This document shows positions 1,460 through 11,303 of a stretch of DNA of 34,338 nt, piece after piece. The number at the start of each line of letters is the position of its first letter. Position 1 is the first letter of the stretch. The notes beneath the pieces are model-generated. The model did no database searches, had not been told where the DNA came from, and saw nothing but the letters and a program-made list of their open reading frames with translations. The stretch is taken from IMG/VR virus record IMGVR_UViG_3300027917_000108, positions 1 through 34,338 of that record; one strand, given 5' to 3'. A program made the translations under genes and the position numbers. This DNA is from a virus.

Positions 1460-2479
1460 ATGAAGAAAGTAACCACCTCCCAAGCCGCGCGAGCGGTTGT
1501 CCTCTCGATCAAAGCGAACATCCCCGTGGCCGTCTGGTCCGAGCCTGGAGCGGGTAAATCCTCGATCATGGCGCAGATCGCGAAGAAGCTCGGATGGCGA
1601 TTGTGGGACGTCCGGCTCTCCGACAAGGAGCCGTCGGACTTCGCGCTCCCGTTCCCGAAGGACGGACGCCTGACGTATCTCATGTCCGATCTTCTCCCGT
1701 TCGACACGGACGAGCCCGGGATCCTCTTCCTCGACGAGTTCGACCGCGCGTCGATGGCCGTCCAGAACATGGCTCTTCAACTAATCCTCGACCGGAGCGT
1801 CTTCGGCCGGAAGCTCGGGAAGAATATCCGGGTGGTTCTCGCCGGGAACCAAGCCTCCGACATCGGGACGAACCAGCTCTCCGAAGCGGCCGCGACTCGG
1901 ATGGTTCACCTTTACCTCGACACGACGTCCGACGGAGCTCTCGAGTCCTGGGCGAAGTGGGCGGAGGACGAGGAAGTCTCTCCGGCTCTCCTCTCGTTCG
2001 CGCGGTTCCGGAAGGATATCTGGGCGGGTGAGGAGCGGACGGATCTCGTCGAATACGCGAAAGCGACCAAGCGGACTTGGGTCATGGCGGACGAGCTTTA
2101 CCGGCTCTCGAAGACGGTGAACTTCGACGTCGACGATATCCTGGGCCCAATCGTCGAGGGGTGCGTCGGATCCGCGGCCGCTGCCGAGTTCCTCGGGTGG
2201 ATCCGGCTTTCGGAGCAGGCTCCCTCGCCGGAGGAGATCCGGAAGGATCCCGCGAAGGCTCCGCTCCCGAGCTCCCCGGACGTCACTTACGCGCTCTCCG
2301 AGCTCCTCGTCCGCGAAGCGAACACGGACGGATCCGCGCTCGGACCGTTCCTCACCTACGCGAACCGCTGGGGCGAAGAGCAAAAAGCCTACTTCTTCCG
2401 ACGCGTCGCGAAGCTCTTCCCGGCCGTCCAGTCGACCGCGATCTTCCAGAAGTGGGAGAAGGCGAGACTCGCCCCATAA
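1460..2479 (+). CDS. MoxR-type AAA+ ATPase
   Basis: This 339-residue protein is a single AAA+ module. The Walker A is SEPGAGKSS at 27-35 (K33 and S34 bind phosphate). The Walker B is ILFLDEF, with D92 and E93, followed by DRA as in MoxR/dynein-related ATPases. The sensor-1 segment is VLAGNQ, with N130, then an arginine-containing turn near A-A-T-R-M. The C-terminal helical part spans about 190-339. MoxR ATPases act as chaperones or remodelers together with VWA-domain partners. A VWA protein gene (4052) and a DUF3150-like gene (2828) follow here, an arrangement I know from other phages and mobile elements. ATG 1460 is preceded by CGAACGAAAGAAAGAACG. The target of this complex cannot be seen in the sequence. 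Confidence 0.85.
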   Translation: MKKVTTSQAARAVVLSIKANIPVAVWSEPGAGKSSIMAQIAKKLGWRLWDVRLSDKEPSDFALPFPKDGRLTYLMSDLLPFDTDEPGILFLDEFDRASMAVQNMALQLILDRSVFGRKLGKNIRVVLAGNQASDIGTNQLSEAAATRMVHLYLDTTSDGALESWAKWAEDEEVSPALLSFARFRKDIWAGEERTDLVEYAKATKRTWVMADELYRLSKTVNFDVDDILGPIVEGCVGSAAAAEFLGWIRLSEQAPSPEEIRKDPAKAPLPSSPDVTYALSELLVREANTDGSALGPFLTYANRWGEEQKAYFFRRVAKLFPAVQSTAIFQKWEKARLAP

Positions 2480-2486
2480 AAAACTG

Positions 2487-2580
2487 CTCCGAAGCGAAAA
2501 TTCCCTCTGGACTGTCCGGAGGGAATTTCGTATGGTGCCCACGACGGTAGAACGAACGAACGACGAACGAAAGAAAGACG
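2487..2580 (+). promoter_or_regulatory. promoter/leader element copy C with dyad around the -35
   Basis: TGGACT (2508-2513), 17 bases, TATGGT (2531-2536), 6 bases and GACGGTAGAA (2543-2552) are followed by an ACGA/GAAA leader to ATG 2581. The arms of the inverted repeat (2495-2507 and 2519-2530) differ in sequence from copy B, yet they still pair. A C-to-T change in the left arm is matched by G-to-A in the right, with one bulged A. The 11-nt loop again begins exactly at the TGGACT hexamer. Retained pairing with changed bases argues that the dyad itself is under selection. Confidence 0.65.
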
Positions 2581-2799
2581 ATGAAAGCCACCTCGACGAA
2601 CACCTTCCGCGCGGACGAAGCCGGACGCCGTTTCCTGGCGGACGCGAGCGAGATCGGGATCCGCGTCGGATCTCTCCCCGACTACATCCCCACGGATCTC
2701 GGCAACGGCCGGGACTTCGAGATCCTCGCGATCGACGAAGACGTCCTGAGCTACCAGCAGCCCGGGACCGGACTCTCCCTTAACGTTCTGAACGACTAA
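2581..2799 (+). CDS. small acidic protein of unknown function (72 aa)
   Basis: ATG 2581 follows the CGAAAGAAAGACG leader of promoter C. The product is acidic and soluble, with an N-terminal basic-acidic helix (EAGRRFLADASEIG) and a C-terminal beta-rich segment (FEILAIDEDV). There are no cysteines, no signal peptide and no membrane segment. I do not recognise it. It stands 28 bases before the DUF3150-like gene and shares its transcription unit. Codon use is typical of the window. Confidence 0.6.
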   Translation: MKATSTNTFRADEAGRRFLADASEIGIRVGSLPDYIPTDLGNGRDFEILAIDEDVLSYQQPGTGLSLNVLND

Positions 2800-2827
2800 A
2801 CCGAAACCTCCCTCCGAAAGAAAGACC

Positions 2828-3727
2828 ATGAAGAAAGAAACCTCCCCGACGGCCGCGAAAGCGGATATCTCCTCGAACTCGATCCTCGTGAAGCTCTCGA
2901 TCCCGACTTACAAGGGGCAATCGAACTGGCGGGAAGGAGCCGAAGAGCTCGCCACCGCGCACGAAGCCGACTCCGAGAGCGTCTCGACCACGCTCAAGGC
3001 TCTGAAGCCCGAAACCCGTCGCAGGGTGATGGGGATCCGCGCGAAGGCTCGGACGGTTTGGCAGAACGCGACGCTCCCCTGGCTCGACGACGGTTCCCGG
3101 CTCTGCCCCATCGCGAACTATCGCCGGTTGCGCGACGAGCTCGAGAAGCTCAAGGCGGAGTTCGAGGACGCGGTCTCCGAGCTCGTCCGGAATTACGACG
3201 AGATCCGGAAGGACGCGGAGACTCGCCTGAACGGGCTCTTTGCGAAAGTCGGCTTCCCGTCGAAGGAGTCCTTCGCGTCGCGGTTCTCGTTCAACGTCGG
3301 GATCGGGGTGATCGCCACCGGGAGCGACGTCCGAGTCCGGACTCTGACGGCGGACGCGGTCGAGGAGATCCGGAAGGAAGTCGACCGGACGAATCGGGAG
3401 CAGATCGCCGAATCCCAGCGGGACGCGCTCCGTCGCGTCGCGGAGAAGGTCACGCACCTCGTCAACAAGATGCTCGAGGAGCCGGAGAAGGGGAAGGATT
3501 CGCCCCACTTCAAGAACTCGATCGTCTCGAACGTCGTCGAAGTCGCGGCCGAAATGCGGAGCTTCAACGTCCTCGAGAGCGCGGAGTTCGACAAGTTCCT
3601 CGCGCGGATCGAGCGCGTCGCGGGACGGATTGATCCGGACGCCTGCCGGGAGAAGAAGGACGCGCGGAAAGCCGCGGCGACGACCGGCAAGGCGATCTTG
3701 AAGGAGATCGACAATTTCTCGTTCTGA
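2828..3727 (+). CDS. DUF3150-like protein, partner of the MoxR/VWA pair
   Basis: This 299-residue soluble protein is mostly helical. After a disordered start, residues about 19-30 contain LVKLSIPTYKG, like the LSI-x-x-W/Y-x-G opening of DUF3150 proteins. A region of repeated arginine/alanine helices follows, then W..ATLPWLDDG (about 77-90) and a long coiled-coil-like segment (about 97-140: RDELEKLKAEFEDAV). The middle (150-190) is mixed, and the C-terminal helices are basic. DUF3150 genes commonly neighbour MoxR ATPase and VWA/metallopeptidase genes in phages, and this gene lies between exactly those. I infer a shared complex. The assignment rests on layout and the N-terminal motif only. The leader is CCGAAAGAAAGACC before ATG. 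Confidence 0.55.
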   Translation: MKKETSPTAAKADISSNSILVKLSIPTYKGQSNWREGAEELATAHEADSESVSTTLKALKPETRRRVMGIRAKARTVWQNATLPWLDDGSRLCPIANYRRLRDELEKLKAEFEDAVSELVRNYDEIRKDAETRLNGLFAKVGFPSKESFASRFSFNVGIGVIATGSDVRVRTLTADAVEEIRKEVDRTNREQIAESQRDALRRVAEKVTHLVNKMLEEPEKGKDSPHFKNSIVSNVVEVAAEMRSFNVLESAEFDKFLARIERVAGRIDPDACREKKDARKAAATTGKAILKEIDNFSF

Positions 3728-3750
3728 TCGTTCGGGACGAGCCGTCACGA

Positions 3751-3788
3751 TCCCCGGAGGGAATTTTCTCTCCGGGGAAAGTTTTTTC
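3751..3788 (+). terminator. Rho-independent terminator after the DUF3150-like gene
   Basis: The left arm TCCCCGGAG (3751-3759) pairs with CTCCGGGGA (3770-3778), extended inward by a G.T wobble, G-C and A-T, to leave a four-base loop. AAG and a run of six T follow (3782-3787). This is a strong intrinsic terminator. Its T-run abuts the -35-like hexamer of promoter copy D, so one transcription unit ends where the next begins. Confidence 0.8.
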
Positions 3789-3858
3789 TGGACTGTTCCC
3801 GGGGACTTCGATATCTTGAGCCCGACGGTAGAAAGAACGAACGAACGAAAGAGCGAAA
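3789..3858 (+). promoter_or_regulatory. promoter/leader element copy D
   Basis: TGGACT (3789-3794), 17 bases, TATCTT (3812-3817), 6 bases and GACGGTAGAA (3824-3833) are followed by an ACGA-repeat leader reaching ATG 3859. Unlike B and C, the bracketing dyad is absent and an intrinsic terminator takes the upstream position. The spacing between hexamers and to the GACGGTA block is identical to the other copies. It probably drives the 3859-6838 gene cluster. Confidence 0.6.
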
Positions 3859-4041
3859 ATGAAAATCCAAGATCTCCAAAACCTCCTCGTCGAAGCGGTC
3901 CTCGATCACGACTCCTCGATCCGCGAATCCTACGGTCTCGAAGACAACGAGGGACCGATCCGCAGCCTCGTCCGCGAGAGCGACGACACCTTCACGGTCA
4001 AGGACGACGAGGGGAACACCTACCGAATCGCGATCCTCTAA
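3859..4041 (+). CDS. small acidic protein of unknown function (60 aa)
   Basis: The first gene after promoter D encodes a very acidic 60-residue protein: an N-terminal helix (LQNLLVEAVLDHD), an acidic middle, and a C-terminal beta hairpin (DTFTVKDDEGNTYRIAIL). The start is preceded by CGAAAGAGCGAAA. I do not recognise the family. It ends 10 bases before the metallopeptidase/VWA gene, whose AAGGAG ribosome site overlaps this gene's stop, so the two are probably translationally linked. Confidence 0.65.
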   Translation: MKIQDLQNLLVEAVLDHDSSIRESYGLEDNEGPIRSLVRESDDTFTVKDDEGNTYRIAIL

Positions 4042-4051
4042 GGAGCCCGGG

Positions 4052-5446
4052 ATGACCACGAAAGCCGAAACCAAGATCCGACGGGCTCTCGATCGCACGA
4101 TCGACGAGTTCCCTTTCTTCGCCGCGCTCGCCGCTCGTTGGACGATCCGGGAAGCCCGGAAGGGAGAGCCGGTCGAAACCTTCGCGACGAACGGTCCGGA
4201 GCTCGTCTTCTCCCGCGCGTTCGCGGACGAGCTCACGAACGAGGAAGTCGCCTGGGTGATCCTCCACGAGCTCGGACACCTTTTCCTCGGACACCATGTC
4301 CGGCTCGCCGATATCGACGCGGATCCGAAGACGAAGAACGTCGGAGCGGATCTCGCGCTCAACTCAATTATCCGCGGCCGCACGCCGGAACGGATGCTTC
4401 GCTTCGCCTGCTTCCCGGGACGCGGGACGTTCGAGGGGATGCCGGACGGCAAGGACATGGAGTTTTACGTCTCGGCTCTCCGACGGAACGAGGGGCAGGA
4501 CGAGCGGGACGGGGGCGAGGACGAGCCGGAGCAGGGGGGATCGGACGAGGAGACCGGCGAGACCGGAAAAGCCGCTCAGAACGAATCCTCGAGCGATTCC
4601 GCCTCCGAGAATAGCGAATCCGCCTCCGAAGGGAGCGAAAGCCAAGCCGAATCGAGCGAAAGCGGCTCCGAAGGGAGCGAAAGCGGCTCGGAAGGCTCCG
4701 GAACGCCTGCGAAGTCGCTCGACGAGCTCGGAACCGGAGAGATCGGGGAAGTCCTTCCCGCTCCCGAACCGGCCGAAGGCGAGAAGAGCGAGGAGCAACG
4801 GTGGACGGAAGCCGTCGCGGACGGAGTCAACGCCGCTCGCGCGGCCGGACGGCTCCCCGGGTGGATCTCCGAAGCGGCCGGGAAGATCCTCTCCTCGAAG
4901 CGGACGATCTCGTGGAAGGAGCTCCTTCGCCGGTTCATGCAGGACGTCTCGAAGAACCAGCTCACCTTCGCGCGGCCGAACCGTCGGAGCGCGTGGCGAT
5001 CGGACGTCGTCCTTCCCTCTCGCTTCTCCCGGGACTCCGGGAAGGGAGCGATCCTCGTCGACACCTCCGGGAGCATGAGCCTCGAGGGGATGAACATCGC
5101 GATCGAAGAGATCGAGAAGATCCTCTCGACCTTCGCGGACGCGAAAGTGACGCTCTTCCAAGCGGATACGAGGATGATCGACGAAGCCGAGCGGACCTTC
5201 TCGAAGACGGACTTCCCGATCCGGATCCCGGTCGAGTGGCGCGGACGAGGCGGGACGGACATGAATCCTCCTCTCCGGAAGATCGCGCTCCGTCGCTCCG
5301 AGTTCTCCTGGCTCGTCGTCCTGACGGACGGTTACTGGGACATGGCGGGAGCGGTCGACGCGGGGATCCCGACGCTTTACGTCATCACTCCGAACGGTTC
5401 AACCTCCTCGAAGCCTCGCTTCGGAAAACTCCTCCCGATCGAATGA
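4052..5446 (+). CDS. metallopeptidase-like / VWA-domain protein (DUF2201-like)
   Basis: This 464-residue two-domain protein has an N-terminal zincin-like domain with HELGH at 72-76 (H72, E73, H76) and more histidines at 80-81. This matches the putative metallopeptidase domain that precedes VWA-like domains in the DUF2201 family. An acidic, serine/glutamate-rich low-complexity linker follows (about 145-235). The C-terminal VWA-like domain has a complete MIDAS: DTSGS at 337-341, T402 in GRGGTDMNP, and D426 in VVLTDGYW. It is the expected partner of the MoxR ATPase at 1460. AAGGAG lies 7 bases before ATG. Its stop overlaps the next start (ATGA). Whether the first domain cleaves anything is unknown. 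Confidence 0.8.
   Translation: MTTKAETKIRRALDRTIDEFPFFAALAARWTIREARKGEPVETFATNGPELVFSRAFADELTNEEVAWVILHELGHLFLGHHVRLADIDADPKTKNVGADLALNSIIRGRTPERMLRFACFPGRGTFEGMPDGKDMEFYVSALRRNEGQDERDGGEDEPEQGGSDEETGETGKAAQNESSSDSASENSESASEGSESQAESSESGSEGSESGSEGSGTPAKSLDELGTGEIGEVLPAPEPAEGEKSEEQRWTEAVADGVNAARAAGRLPGWISEAAGKILSSKRTISWKELLRRFMQDVSKNQLTFARPNRRSAWRSDVVLPSRFSRDSGKGAILVDTSGSMSLEGMNIAIEEIEKILSTFADAKVTLFQADTRMIDEAERTFSKTDFPIRIPVEWRGRGGTDMNPPLRKIALRRSEFSWLVVLTDGYWDMAGAVDAGIPTLYVITPNGSTSSKPRFGKLLPIE
4600..4715 (+). repeat. degenerate in-frame repeat in the VWA protein linker
   Basis: Units of the type GGCTCCGAAGGGAGCGAAAGC recur imperfectly, encoding the serine/glutamate/glycine repeat SEGSES. They form a flexible acidic linker between the zincin-like and VWA domains. 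Such repeats change length easily by slippage. Confidence 0.6.
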
Positions 5447-6881: not shown

Positions 6882-8933
6882 ATGAAAGGCTCGAAAGCGC
6901 GAAAGAAAGCCGACGGAATCCGGATCGAGTGCTCCTTTACCTCCCTCGAGGAAATCGCCTCCCTCGTCCCGAATCCCCGAAACCCGAACACCCATCCTCC
7001 CGGGCAAGTCCGGATCCTAGCGGAAGCGATCCGACTCCGCGGGTGGCGTCTCCCGATCGTCGTCTCGAAGCGGTCCGGCTTCATCACAAAGGGGCACGGA
7101 CGCCTCCTCGCCGCGAAGGCTCTCGGAGTCTCCCACGCTCCGGTCGACTTCCAGGCTTACCTATCCGAAGCGGAGGAGTGGGCGGACATGATCGCGGACA
7201 ACCAGATCGCGGAGCTCGCGGAGATGGACGAGAACGAGCTCACCCGACTCGTCGAAGAGCTCGAGCAGCGCGCGGACGAGCTCGCGCTCCCGGAGGGGAT
7301 GACCATCGAGCAATACCTCGAGACGTTGGGCCCGATCCCGGACCTTTCCGTTGTCTCGGAGAAACTCGGAAAAGCCGATTCGCTCCGGGAACGCTTTATC
7401 GTTCCACCCTTCACGGTCCTCGACGCTCGCCAAGGATGGTGGAGAGCGAGGAAACAGGCGTGGATCGCGCTCGGGATCGAGTCCGAGCTCGGCCGGAAAG
7501 GCGATATGGTCTTCCGGGGATCCGCGCAGCCGTTCTCGATAACGCGGGTGAAGAACGAGATCGAGAAGCGGGAAGGCCGCTCGATCTCCTGGGAGGAGTT
7601 CCGGACGCTCCATCCCGAACTCATGGTTGGCGGGACGTCGATCTTCGATCCGGTCCTCTGCGAAGTCCTTCTCCGGTGGTTCTGTCCTCCCGGGGGCTCC
7701 GTCCTCGATCCGTTCGCCGGGGGCTCCGTCCGGGGGATCGTGGCCGCGCGGCTCGGCTTCCATTATGACGGGATCGAGCTCCGCTCCGAACAGGTTCGGG
7801 CGAACCGTCGCCAAGCGAAGGCGATCCTCGGACGGCCGAAGAAGAAGACCGTCACCGTCCGGATCTCCTCGAAGATGGCGAACCTCCGCTTCCACGGGTG
7901 TAAGCCGGACTTCGTCCGGGAAGTCTGCCACGCGAAATGCTGCTTCTCCGGAGATAAAAAGAAAGGAGCGGTCGTCTCCGTCCTCCCGACGGAGGAAGCC
8001 GTCCTCGAGCGACTCGGGGAAACGCGAGTAAAAGACGGGCTCCTCGTCCCGAAGGAGGGGAAGTGTCCGTTTATCGACGTGAACGGCGCGTGCGGTCTCC
8101 ACGGCTCCCCACACAAGCCTTTCGGGTGTATCGCCTCTCCCTTTACCCTGAACCGCTCCGGGACGCTCATCGTCCGGCACCGTTACCTTCAACTCCCCTG
8201 CTACAAAACGGAGGAGAGCGTTCCGGCATACGAAGCCTTCGGAGCCTCCCTCGAGCTCCTCTTCGGAAAACTCGAAGCCGGTCGAATCGCCGCGAAGCTC
8301 GCCTCCGGATCCGGGGACTTCGACGCGGAGATGCCGATCGAGACATGGCGGGACGTCCGATATCTCGACGGAGTGAAGAAAGGGAAATCCTCTCCGGAGA
8401 ACTCGAAAGAAGCGAAGCCCGGAACCGCTCGGTGGATCGTCGGAGACGCCGCGACGGAGCTCCCGAAGGCGAAGGGGCTCGTGGACTACGTGTTCACATG
8501 CCCACCGTATTTCGATCTCGAGAAATACTCCTCCGACGTCCGGGATATCTCGAACGCTCAGACTTACGAGAAATTCCTCGCCTCTTATCGGACCATCCTC
8601 GAGAGAGCGGCCGCTCGCCTCGCGGAGAACCGCTTCTTCTCGATCGTCGTCGGAGATATCCGCAACAAAGGCGGGATTTACCGCAATTTCGTGGGCGATA
8701 CCGTCGGAATCATGCAATCCGCGGGACTCGGACTCTACAACGAAGCGATCCTCGCGATCGCGCTCACCTCCGCTCCGATCCGCGCGGGACGGCTCTTCGC
8801 AACCTCCCGCAAACTCTGCAAGGTTCATCAGAATGTGCTCGTCTTCGTCAAAGGGGATCCGAAGAAAGCCGTCGAGGAAGTCGGACTCCCGGAATTCGGG
8901 GAGACGGAACCGATCGAGGAGCCGGAGGACTAA
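6882..8933 (+). CDS. ParB-like domain / DNA methyltransferase fusion with inserted cysteine-rich domain
   Basis: In this 683-residue protein, residues about 15-160 form a ParB/sulfiredoxin-like domain (LVPNPRNPNTHP, GHGRLLAAK, MIADNQIAELAE), as found before many phage DNA methylases. Residues 172-200 carry VPPFTVLDARQGWW, conserved in that family. The SAM-binding motif I is DPFAGGS at 276-282. The catalytic motif CPPYFDLE begins at 540, followed by VVGDIRNKGG and the family's typical end NVLVFVKGDPKKA. Between the two halves (about 325-510) lies a cysteine-rich domain with C340, C349, C353-C354, C395, C404, C416 and C440. The CHAKCC and KPFGC spacing recalls YkgJ-type metal/Fe-S proteins. It probably modifies phage DNA, and the target base is not visible. 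The start choice is weak: no Shine-Dalgarno. Confidence 0.85.
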   Translation: MKGSKARKKADGIRIECSFTSLEEIASLVPNPRNPNTHPPGQVRILAEAIRLRGWRLPIVVSKRSGFITKGHGRLLAAKALGVSHAPVDFQAYLSEAEEWADMIADNQIAELAEMDENELTRLVEELEQRADELALPEGMTIEQYLETLGPIPDLSVVSEKLGKADSLRERFIVPPFTVLDARQGWWRARKQAWIALGIESELGRKGDMVFRGSAQPFSITRVKNEIEKREGRSISWEEFRTLHPELMVGGTSIFDPVLCEVLLRWFCPPGGSVLDPFAGGSVRGIVAARLGFHYDGIELRSEQVRANRRQAKAILGRPKKKTVTVRISSKMANLRFHGCKPDFVREVCHAKCCFSGDKKKGAVVSVLPTEEAVLERLGETRVKDGLLVPKEGKCPFIDVNGACGLHGSPHKPFGCIASPFTLNRSGTLIVRHRYLQLPCYKTEESVPAYEAFGASLELLFGKLEAGRIAAKLASGSGDFDAEMPIETWRDVRYLDGVKKGKSSPENSKEAKPGTARWIVGDAATELPKAKGLVDYVFTCPPYFDLEKYSSDVRDISNAQTYEKFLASYRTILERAAARLAENRFFSIVVGDIRNKGGIYRNFVGDTVGIMQSAGLGLYNEAILAIALTSAPIRAGRLFATSRKLCKVHQNVLVFVKGDPKKAVEEVGLPEFGETEPIEEPED

Positions 8934-9199: not shown

Positions 9200-9363
9200 C
9201 GTTGCCTGCCAATACTCCGCGGTGCCGACTTCGTCCAGAAACTTGTTCCGGAATCTCCTTGCGTCTCCGGAAACCGTTCGAGAACAATCGACTCGGACGC
9301 CGCGGAGCGGCTCCCGAACACCCGCGGGACGCGGGACGACGCAGAACTCGAAAGGACGGAACG

Positions 9364-9903
9364 ATGTCGAGAATGAAACGGAGCGGTGCTCCGAATCGGA
9401 AACGCGCGGAACGGACGCACGACCAGAAACGAATCGCCGCGCTTTATCTCGAACGGCATACGATCACGGAGATCGCCGAAACGCTTAACCTCTCCCGGAC
9501 GACGGTTCATCGGGACATCATGGCTCTCGAGGACGCGTGGCGGAGGGACGGGCTCCTCGATATGCACCGCGCGAAGATGCGGCAGCTTATGGAGCTCCGG
9601 AGAGTCCGGAACGAGGCTCTCCACGCCTGGGAGGAGTCGAAGAAAGGGGAGACGGAGATCACGCAGCACCGTCCGACTCCGTCGAAGCGGAGCCCGAAGC
9701 CGAAGGCGACGCGGGAGATCATCAAACGGAAAACCTCGACGGGTGATCCGGCTTACCTCGCCGCGTTCCTCCGGGCGATCGAGGACGAAGGGGACTTGCT
9801 CGGGACGAAGATCCGGAAGCTCGAGATCGACACTCCGGAAGAAGGCGGGATCGGTGGCGGACTCATAATCCTTCCGACTCCGAGTCTCGAGGATCTCCGA
9901 TGA
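9364..9903 (+). CDS. terminase small subunit (probable)
   Basis: This 179-residue protein sits directly before the large terminase gene, with a four-base overlap (ATGA). A basic N-terminus leads into a helix-turn-helix at about 36-56 (ITEIAETLNLSRTTVHRDI), then helices with LMELRRVRNEALHAWEESK and a basic, disordered stretch. The acidic C-terminus would face TerL. Small terminases bind pac/cos DNA through N-terminal HTH domains and form rings that load TerL. ATG 9364 follows AAAGGA. A TTG start at 9202 in the same frame would add 54 residues without resemblance and was not used. Position and HTH support the role. Sequence identity to a named family was not judged. Confidence 0.75.
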   Translation: MSRMKRSGAPNRKRAERTHDQKRIAALYLERHTITEIAETLNLSRTTVHRDIMALEDAWRRDGLLDMHRAKMRQLMELRRVRNEALHAWEESKKGETEITQHRPTPSKRSPKPKATREIIKRKTSTGDPAYLAAFLRAIEDEGDLLGTKIRKLEIDTPEEGGIGGGLIILPTPSLEDLR

Positions 9904-11303
9904 GAAACGGCCGAAGACTCTCCGAGATCCACAAGATCGCGGCGAAAGTCTGCTGGGAGCCGAATCCCGGACCGCAACTCCGGTTCCTCACGTCCCTTGC
10001 TCGGGAGATCCTTTACGGGGGAGCGGCCGGAGGAGGGAAGACGGACGCGCTCCTGATCGACGCCGTCCGGGACCGGGAGTCCGAATACATGCGGTCGATC
10101 ATCTTCCGGAAGACCTTCCCGGAAATGAAGGATCTCATCCGTCGCTCGATGGAGCTTTACCCTGCTCTCGACGCTCGATATCGCTCGTCGACCCGGGAGT
10201 GGTTCTTCCCGAAAGGAGGGATCGTCGAGTTCGGATACCTCGACCAGCATAAGGACAAATTCAAATACTCGGGACGCGCGTTCACCTACATCGGATGGGA
10301 CGAGCTAACCCGCTGGAAGGACGACACCCACTATAAATTCCTTTACTCCCGGCTCCGGACTTCGGCGAAGGCTCTCTCGGAGAAGATCCCGGGGACGGAT
10401 CTCCCGAAGCTCACTCTCCGGATCCGAGCGACGACGAATCCCGGGGGAGACGGGCACTTTTGGGTAAAGAGCCATTTCGGGATCGAGGACGACGGAGCGG
10501 AGACGGAGCACGAAACGAAGCACGGGCTCGTCCGGTTCATTCCCGCGAAGATCTCGGACAACCCGATCCTCGCGGAGACCGATTATGAGGACACCTTGGA
10601 CATGCTCCCGGACCATCTTCGCCGGATGCTCAAGGAAGGCCGCTGGGATATCCTCGAGGGAATGGCGTTCTCGGAGTGGGATCGCCGGATCCACGTCGTC
10701 GAGCCGTTCGCGCTCCCGGCGACGGCGAAATGGTGGCGCGGGTGCGACGACGGATACAACGCTCCGGCTTGCGTCCTCTGGTTCGCTCTCTTCGATCGCC
10801 GCGTTTACGTCGTCGCTGAGCTTTACCGGAACCAGCTCGTCGCGGAGGAGCTCGCGGAGATCGTTATGAAGCGAGACCGCTCGATCCCGGTCGACTACGG
10901 GGACGAGGACGTCCGGCCGCTCGATCGCGAGCTCGACGGGATAATCGACTCGGCCGCGTTCGCGGACCACGGGATCCGAAGAATGCGAGGAGGCTCCCGG
11001 GCGAAGATAATGAACGAGATCGGCTGCGAGTGGAAACCGAGCCACAAAGGAGCGAACTCTCGAGTCCAAGGAGCGTCGCTCGTTCACTCGTTACTGAGGG
11101 GGAAGCTCGCGGACGGGCTCCCGAAGATTCAGATCTTCTCGAACTGTAAGAACCTCATCCGGACGCTTCCCGCTCTCCCGATCGACGAGCTCGATCCGGA
11201 GGACGTCGACACGACGGCGGAAGACCACGCATACGACGCGCTTCGATACGGCTTGCAAGGAGTGCCCGAACTCGTTAAGACGAGGAAGTTGAAAGGAACC
11301 TGA
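9900..11303 (+). CDS. terL: terminase large subunit
   Basis: This 467-residue DNA-packaging motor has an N-terminal ATPase with a Walker A of GGAAGGGKT at 40-48. The Walker B is FTYIGWDE, with D134 and catalytic E135, followed by LTRW. A coupling motif lies near IRATTNPGG. The C-terminal RNase H-like nuclease starts with GCDDGYNAPACVLW (D283/D284), with further acidic residues near IIDSAAF and the terminal VDTTAEDHAYDALRY. It packages DNA through the portal and cuts the concatemer. Length and order are normal for Terminase_6-type enzymes. It ends four bases before the portal gene. Confidence 0.95.
   Translation: MRNGRRLSEIHKIAAKVCWEPNPGPQLRFLTSLAREILYGGAAGGGKTDALLIDAVRDRESEYMRSIIFRKTFPEMKDLIRRSMELYPALDARYRSSTREWFFPKGGIVEFGYLDQHKDKFKYSGRAFTYIGWDELTRWKDDTHYKFLYSRLRTSAKALSEKIPGTDLPKLTLRIRATTNPGGDGHFWVKSHFGIEDDGAETEHETKHGLVRFIPAKISDNPILAETDYEDTLDMLPDHLRRMLKEGRWDILEGMAFSEWDRRIHVVEPFALPATAKWWRGCDDGYNAPACVLWFALFDRRVYVVAELYRNQLVAEELAEIVMKRDRSIPVDYGDEDVRPLDRELDGIIDSAAFADHGIRRMRGGSRAKIMNEIGCEWKPSHKGANSRVQGASLVHSLLRGKLADGLPKIQIFSNCKNLIRTLPALPIDELDPEDVDTTAEDHAYDALRYGLQGVPELVKTRKLKGT

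Follow-up and report, generated by a model that had tools for sequence, protein, structure and literature searches.

An eight-cysteine domain inserted in a ParB-like/DNA methyltransferase fusion of phages alternates with a pyridoxal-phosphate enzyme domain at the same site

Main finding

A phage gene encoding a ParB-like/DNA methyltransferase fusion was found to carry an eight-cysteine domain (the Cys domain) between the two halves of its methyltransferase. The gene lies in a stretch of viral DNA of 34,338 nucleotides, the whole of IMG/VR virus record IMGVR_UViG_3300027917_000108, hereafter called the window. Comparison with relatives showed the Cys domain to be a mobile partner for methyltransferases of this family: it occurs at one insertion site, in other fusions and as an adjacent gene, and it alternates, over the same range of layouts, with PALP, a pyridoxal-phosphate enzyme domain (PLP-fold-II). 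The Cys domain, PALP and, rarely, a PP-loop ATPase thus form a modular, exchangeable association with one methyltransferase family. We consider it probable that the insert folds on its own as an accessory domain with eight cysteines and presumably a bound metal, and that it works with a ParB-guided methyltransferase in phage DNA modification.

The methyltransferase gene of the window

Table 1. Features of the methyltransferase gene and the adjoining genes in the window
Feature	Position	Strand	Evidence
ParB-like/DNA methyltransferase with inserted Cys domain, 683 aa	6882..8933	+	PHROG_498, E 6e-103; PHROG_12517, E 4e-92
ParB-like N-terminal domain, residues 25-131	6954..7274	+	PHROG_15396, E 1e-26; PHROG_620, E 1e-24
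Methyltransferase half 1 (motif X-like region, motif I, helix after beta-2), residues 250-316	7629..7829	+	AlphaFold2 secondary structure
SAM motif I, DPFAGGS, residues 276-282	7707..7727	+	Translation
Insert between Rossmann helix 302-316 and strand 515-520, residues 317-512	7830..8417	+	Missing in 123/139 relatives
Conserved Cys domain, residues 322-502	7845..8387	+	Alignment of 17 copies; own model
Methyltransferase half 2, residues 513-668	8418..8885	+	PHROG_12517 match at 510-667
Catalytic motif IV, CPPY, residues 540-543	8499..8510	+	Translation
Small HTH protein, presumed small terminase subunit	9202..9903	+	Presumed from position before TerL
Large terminase subunit (TerL)	9900..11303	+	PHROG_979, E 1e-41

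The reading frame is open throughout, with no stop. An earlier note, made from the letters of the sequence, had placed the gene in a known phage family of ParB-like/methyltransferase fusions, and the match to PHROG_498 confirmed this. PHROG_498 and PHROG_12517 were each matched in two stretches covering the methyltransferase parts of the protein, the PHROG_498 profile matching both halves, and SAM motif I and the PPY motif IV were intact; translation and a script located both motifs and the eight cysteines at the residues given in that note. By profile and intact motifs, the protein is a PHROG_498 ParB-methyltransferase with predicted methyltransferase activity. Residues D276, F278, G280, G281, V283, R284 and G285 were invariant across 43 aligned sequences, as was CPPY in the methyltransferase alignment (A5).

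The C-terminal end of the Pfam profile N6_N4_Mtase matched the motif I part of the protein, and residues 503-594 matched the beginning of 2zie, a beta-class enzyme whose structure has been solved. The order of motifs is therefore permuted relative to beta-class enzymes, and the insert is at the meeting point of the ends of such an enzyme. In VIA-align, residues 181-660 aligned with the N2-guanine tRNA methyltransferases Trm11, TrmN and Trm14 (Z about 17.5).

The gene is situated just upstream of the small HTH gene and the large terminase gene, and in the loci of relatives, genes of the family are often directly upstream of terminase genes. The sole PHROG match of the HTH protein was PHROG_645 ('Rnase E'); its designation as the small terminase subunit is therefore a presumption drawn only from its position before TerL. 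The ParB-like domain of the window (6882-7375) was closer (about 54%) to those of the beta-class ParB-methyltransferases L008 and L011 than to the ParB-like domains found with most relatives of the methyltransferase half, which suggests a chimeric gene. Elsewhere in the window, the region 4052-5446 has the PHROG_1314 label HNH endonuclease; its sequence contains HELGH and looks metallopeptidase/VWA-like, and a MoxR-like ATPase (1460-2479) is nearby.

Spacing between motif I and CPPY in the relatives

The sample comprised 139 distinct methyltransferases from IMG/VR, gathered in a first survey and in a larger one run with other query sequences. Motif I and CPPY were separated by 65-85 residues in 123 of them. 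Seven, including the window, had 257-281 residues (264 in the window, about 190 of them extra), all with the same Cys domain, and nine had 319-356 residues, all with a PALP domain; no intermediate spacing and no third insert type were present among the 139. These spacings bear out the reading of the earlier note that the methyltransferase is split by a separate Cys-rich domain. Both kinds of insert start right after a conserved ANRxQ helix and stop before an xWxxGDS strand, and in the full-length model the insertion point falls between the corresponding helix and strand of the Rossmann fold (Table 1).

The earlier note had also named a rival outcome, namely that the insert is a normal part of the target-recognition domain (TRD) in all relatives. 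With the Cys insert present in 7/139, and 123/139 having no domain of the kind that an alpha-class TRD would place between motifs III and IV throughout the family, this did not hold; the insert is not a normal TRD, since it is missing in most relatives and the Cys domain and PALP are exchangeable partners. An assembly artefact was rejected as well, because a near-identical copy of the window protein (99.5% aa) was found on another IMG/VR contig and the Cys insert occurs in about seven further lineages.

Conservation and predicted fold of the Cys domain

Eight of the 13 cysteines of the protein lie inside the insert of about 196 residues (C340, C349, C353, C354, C395, C404, C416 and C440; Fisher p = 0.013). 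Stronger evidence than this enrichment came from their conservation: in an alignment of 17 viral copies over 181 residues, C354 was kept in 16 copies and the other seven cysteines in all 17. Residues E371, H407, K412, R432, R434 and Y435 were also invariant, and charged residues kept alongside the cysteines suggest a ligand or active site.

Structure prediction of the full protein set the domain between Rossmann elements, and modelled alone it gave a confident fold of its own (pLDDT 91.8, pTM 0.86); the Cys domain is predicted with high confidence to fold independently. Searches of PDB folds returned no Foldseek match at E<=0.001 and no VIA match at Z>=2. The best match among viral models (BFVD), with TM 0.92 and 35% identity, was a phage protein bearing the name zinc- or iron-chelating domain containing protein.

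Relationship to YkgJ and DUF3109

Searched alone against Pfam, NCBIfam and PHROG, the insert of the window had no match apart from PHROG_29429 at chance level (E 0.06), and PF03692 (YkgJ) gave none at E up to 10. Only one copy, that of L122, reached the PF03692 cut-off, and did so exactly (23.0 vs 23 bits). PHROG matches were absent in the 6 relatives tested, and NCBIfam NF038110 (FliB) matched none of 17 copies. Alignment of the Cys domain to cellular YkgJ proteins with hhalign gave a probability of 74%; DUF3109 (PF11307) matched weakly in a few copies, and the Cys-domain profile reached two distant Bacteroidota proteins, read as DUF3109-like.

The eight cysteines stand in the same order as in YkgJ and DUF3109 proteins, together with a shared CPF...C.(I/L)(Y/H)...P..C...PF stretch; the phage domain differs in its CX8CX3CC start, its own C-terminal half and its phage methyltransferase context, the literal CX2CX2CC spacing being absent. 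The YkgJ likeness proposed in the earlier note is therefore upheld in part: cysteine order, the hhalign result and the L122 score speak for it, and the spacing and the lack of a Pfam match in the window copy speak against it. The Cys domain appears to be a distant relative of YkgJ/CxxCxxCC and DUF3109, and because the kinship is only distant, that of the window was filed as a relative and not as a YkgJ member.

Occurrence and layouts of the Cys domain

The inserted form was seen in about eight lineages (the window, L024, L025/L105, L041, L107-109, L111, L122 and L126). Fusion at the C-terminus was found in L097 and in L128, a phage-like contig of a Candidatus Azobacteroides MAG, and fusion upstream of motif X in L112. 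In nine lineages (L115-L121, L124 and L127), the domain is a stand-alone gene of about 190 aa, which adjoins or overlaps a DNA methyltransferase gene in L115, L117, L118/L125, L119 and L124 and is one gene away from such a gene in L127. A methyltransferase profile search of nine records gave a match in 8/9, weak in L117 and L120, and none in L116; no clear methyltransferase of the family was on the contigs of L116 and L120. The neighbour in L117 looks like a beta-class enzyme, so the partners of the Cys domain are not confined to one subfamily. L044 has a divergent Cys domain (23% identity) in the same loop, where it ends the first ORF; in this locus (L044:4926-8057) a PP-loop (QueC-like) ATPase gene breaks the methyltransferase gene up into separate ORFs.

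Searching 50,697 phage records by tblastn with Cys-domain queries gave nothing significant, and one such query gave nothing in plasmids; no isolate phage record searched has the Cys form. In genome scans, the sole Cys-domain find was the phage-like contig in the Candidatus Azobacteroides MAG, and 395 Bacteroidota genomes yielded the Candidatus Azobacteroides genome again and two distant relatives read as DUF3109.

PALP and PP-loop partners

PALP occupies the same fold position as the Cys insert. Pseudanabaena phage Pam4 and the Erythrobacter phages R6L and ZS04 provided the first examples of the PALP-inserted form, and the inserted forms tested scored above the cut-off of Pfam PF00291. PALP was found inserted, fused at the C-terminus (L179) and as an adjacent downstream gene (23/139 loci); its PLP lysine was invariant in 23/23 aligned copies, and one insert matched D-cysteine desulfhydrase. 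In Erythrobacter phages, a phosphoadenosine-phosphosulfate reductase gene is near the PALP form. PP-loop genes adjoin the methyltransferase in L068 and L072, that of L068, related to the one in L044, matching QueC.

The Cys domain was present in 12/139 loci, PALP in 40/139 and both in 0/139 (hypergeometric p about 0.014; sampling not random), a statistic that is rough because flanks of 3-10 kb were searched and some Cys loci were gathered with Cys queries. As 85/139 loci have no known partner of these kinds nearby, the methyltransferase works without one.

The methyltransferase tree showed many changes of partner label, and supported sister pairs differed in partner (L084 with PALP and L118 with Cys; L097 with Cys and L102 with none). 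Several independent insertions at the same site were considered and are not secured: the inserted Cys form needs 5 changes on the tree, yet a single origin was not rejected (AU p = 0.06).

Comparison with known systems

The PHROG_498 fusions of Listeria phage B054 (gp77) and Enterococcus phage phiFL3A (gp36) share with the window protein the ParB-like domain, DPFAGGSVRG, CPPY and motif I before motif IV; unlike the window protein they are without the Cys insert, their tblastn matches fitting a short loop. The PALP-methyltransferases of Pam4 and R6L/ZS04 have the same methyltransferase and insertion site, whereas their insert is the PLP-fold-II enzyme.

The closest functional analogy is FliB, a flagellin lysine methyltransferase in which a CX4CX3CC motif binds a [4Fe-4S] cluster essential for SAM methyl transfer, and which with dithionite gave MTA, hinting at radical aminocarboxypropyl chemistry (PMC8598068). 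Like the Cys domain, it has a cluster motif of the form CX(n)CX3CC, conserves eight cysteines and is tied to SAM methyl transfer; it differs in having a protein as substrate, in lacking the Rossmann domain of a DNA methyltransferase, and in a CX4CX3CC motif where the phages have CX8CX3CC (PMC8598068). Because the window copy has no Pfam or NCBIfam match, FliB serves as an analogy only. The metal, the cluster type and the reaction of the Cys domain are inferred; by this analogy, the site would more likely hold [4Fe-4S] than structural zinc.

In the phage 5-carboxymethylcytosine hypermodification by CmoA/CmoX/CmoY, a SAM-derived handle is extended by a partner enzyme (PMC12783734). The likeness lies in the concept of a handle added by a methyltransferase and then worked on by a partner; the system differs in having a C5-cytosine enzyme, separate genes and an amide ligase as partner, and no domain in common was found. 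A literature search of partial coverage gave no paper on the Cys-insert methyltransferase architecture, and an earlier description may exist.

Possible function of the Cys domain

The Cys domain is best read as an accessory module, of cofactor or catalytic type, in the (hyper)modification of phage DNA. The ParB-like domain would guide the enzyme, the methyltransferase would put a SAM-derived group on a base, the Cys domain or PALP would provide the cofactor chemistry to take the base or SAM one step further, and the resulting modification would keep host restriction from acting on the phage DNA. The formation of MTA by FliB, together with the action of PLP enzymes on amino-acid groups, underlies a more specific version, in which the core installs an unusual SAM-derived group, possibly aminocarboxypropyl, and Fe-S Cys or PLP plug-ins do the second chemistry from the same fold position; we regard this version as rather unlikely.

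Several other explanations have to be weighed. Alpha-class DNA methyltransferases have their TRD between motifs III and IV, and Cys-rich domains often bind zinc and DNA. The Cys domain could thus be a structural zinc domain for target recognition or DNA binding at that site, as the order X-I-[insert]-IV would fit, but this is unlikely given that 123/139 relatives are without the domain, that it also occurs C-terminally, upstream or stand-alone, and that a PLP enzyme, an improbable TRD, takes the same place. The insert may instead be passenger cargo, with the pre-terminase locus gathering accessory genes and a permissive loop tolerating inserts without functional coupling. The loop does join segments equivalent to the ends of beta-class enzymes, and the gene is often directly upstream of terminase genes; nevertheless, the presence of just two insert types in 139, each also a neighbour of the methyltransferase, and the very few other contexts of the Cys domain make this quite unlikely.

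Since Fe-S clusters are common sensors, the redox or metal state of a cluster might toggle methyltransferase activity, and an insertion between Rossmann elements could, judging from the model, pass on a conformational change. We consider such a switch very unlikely, as stand-alone copies and the exchange with a PLP enzyme misfit a simple sensor and the invariant charged residues point to chemistry; the stand-alone neighbour genes, the several fusion layouts and the PLP-enzyme exchange favour a second reaction or a cofactor function over a sensor. Highly improbable, finally, is a DNA thiolation-type pathway of which desulfhydrase-like PALP, the QueC-like PP-loop ATPase and the Cys cluster would be alternative parts. 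The D-cysteine desulfhydrase match, the PP-loop genes next to the methyltransferase in L068/L072 and within the split gene of L044, and the phosphoadenosine-phosphosulfate (PAPS) reductase gene of Erythrobacter phages point that way, but co-occurrence of the parts is rare, and PAPS reductase-like genes are common in phages.

One methyltransferase scaffold has acquired, at one and the same position of its structure, two cofactor-type domains that are unrelated to each other, and both also occur as neighbour genes. This suggests that the Cys domain and PALP form an interchangeable toolkit for modifying viral DNA. The layouts are strong genomic evidence that YkgJ-like domains, of largely unknown function, cooperate with DNA-modifying methyltransferases, and they place YkgJ in a definite biochemical setting that can be tested. 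Hypermodification of phage DNA blocks restriction by the host and has time and again brought new enzymology to light; if true, the plug-in reading would define a modular class of hypermodification enzymes in phages. The toolkit idea is testable because PALP forms exist in isolate phages, R6L, ZS04 and Pam4 being places to look for an unknown base.

Split reading frames in the relatives

Two separate ORFs often encode the ParB part and the methyltransferase part, the break falling in the variable segment ahead of motif X (L022, 3040-4651; L025, 5507-7264; L041, 4953-7540; also L107, L111 and L179). In several cases the second ORF starts with MAKGKARTFGQDLMRGEH or a similar sequence, and the pattern resembles repeated splitting of the gene or translational coupling. 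An apparent frameshift within the Cys insert of L041 (6869-6906) also splits the methyltransferase ORF, through sequencing error or real decay. In L117, the ORF of the terminase large subunit (2052-3893) contains an apparent mini-intein (CVSGDTLISTPTG ... VAHNC).
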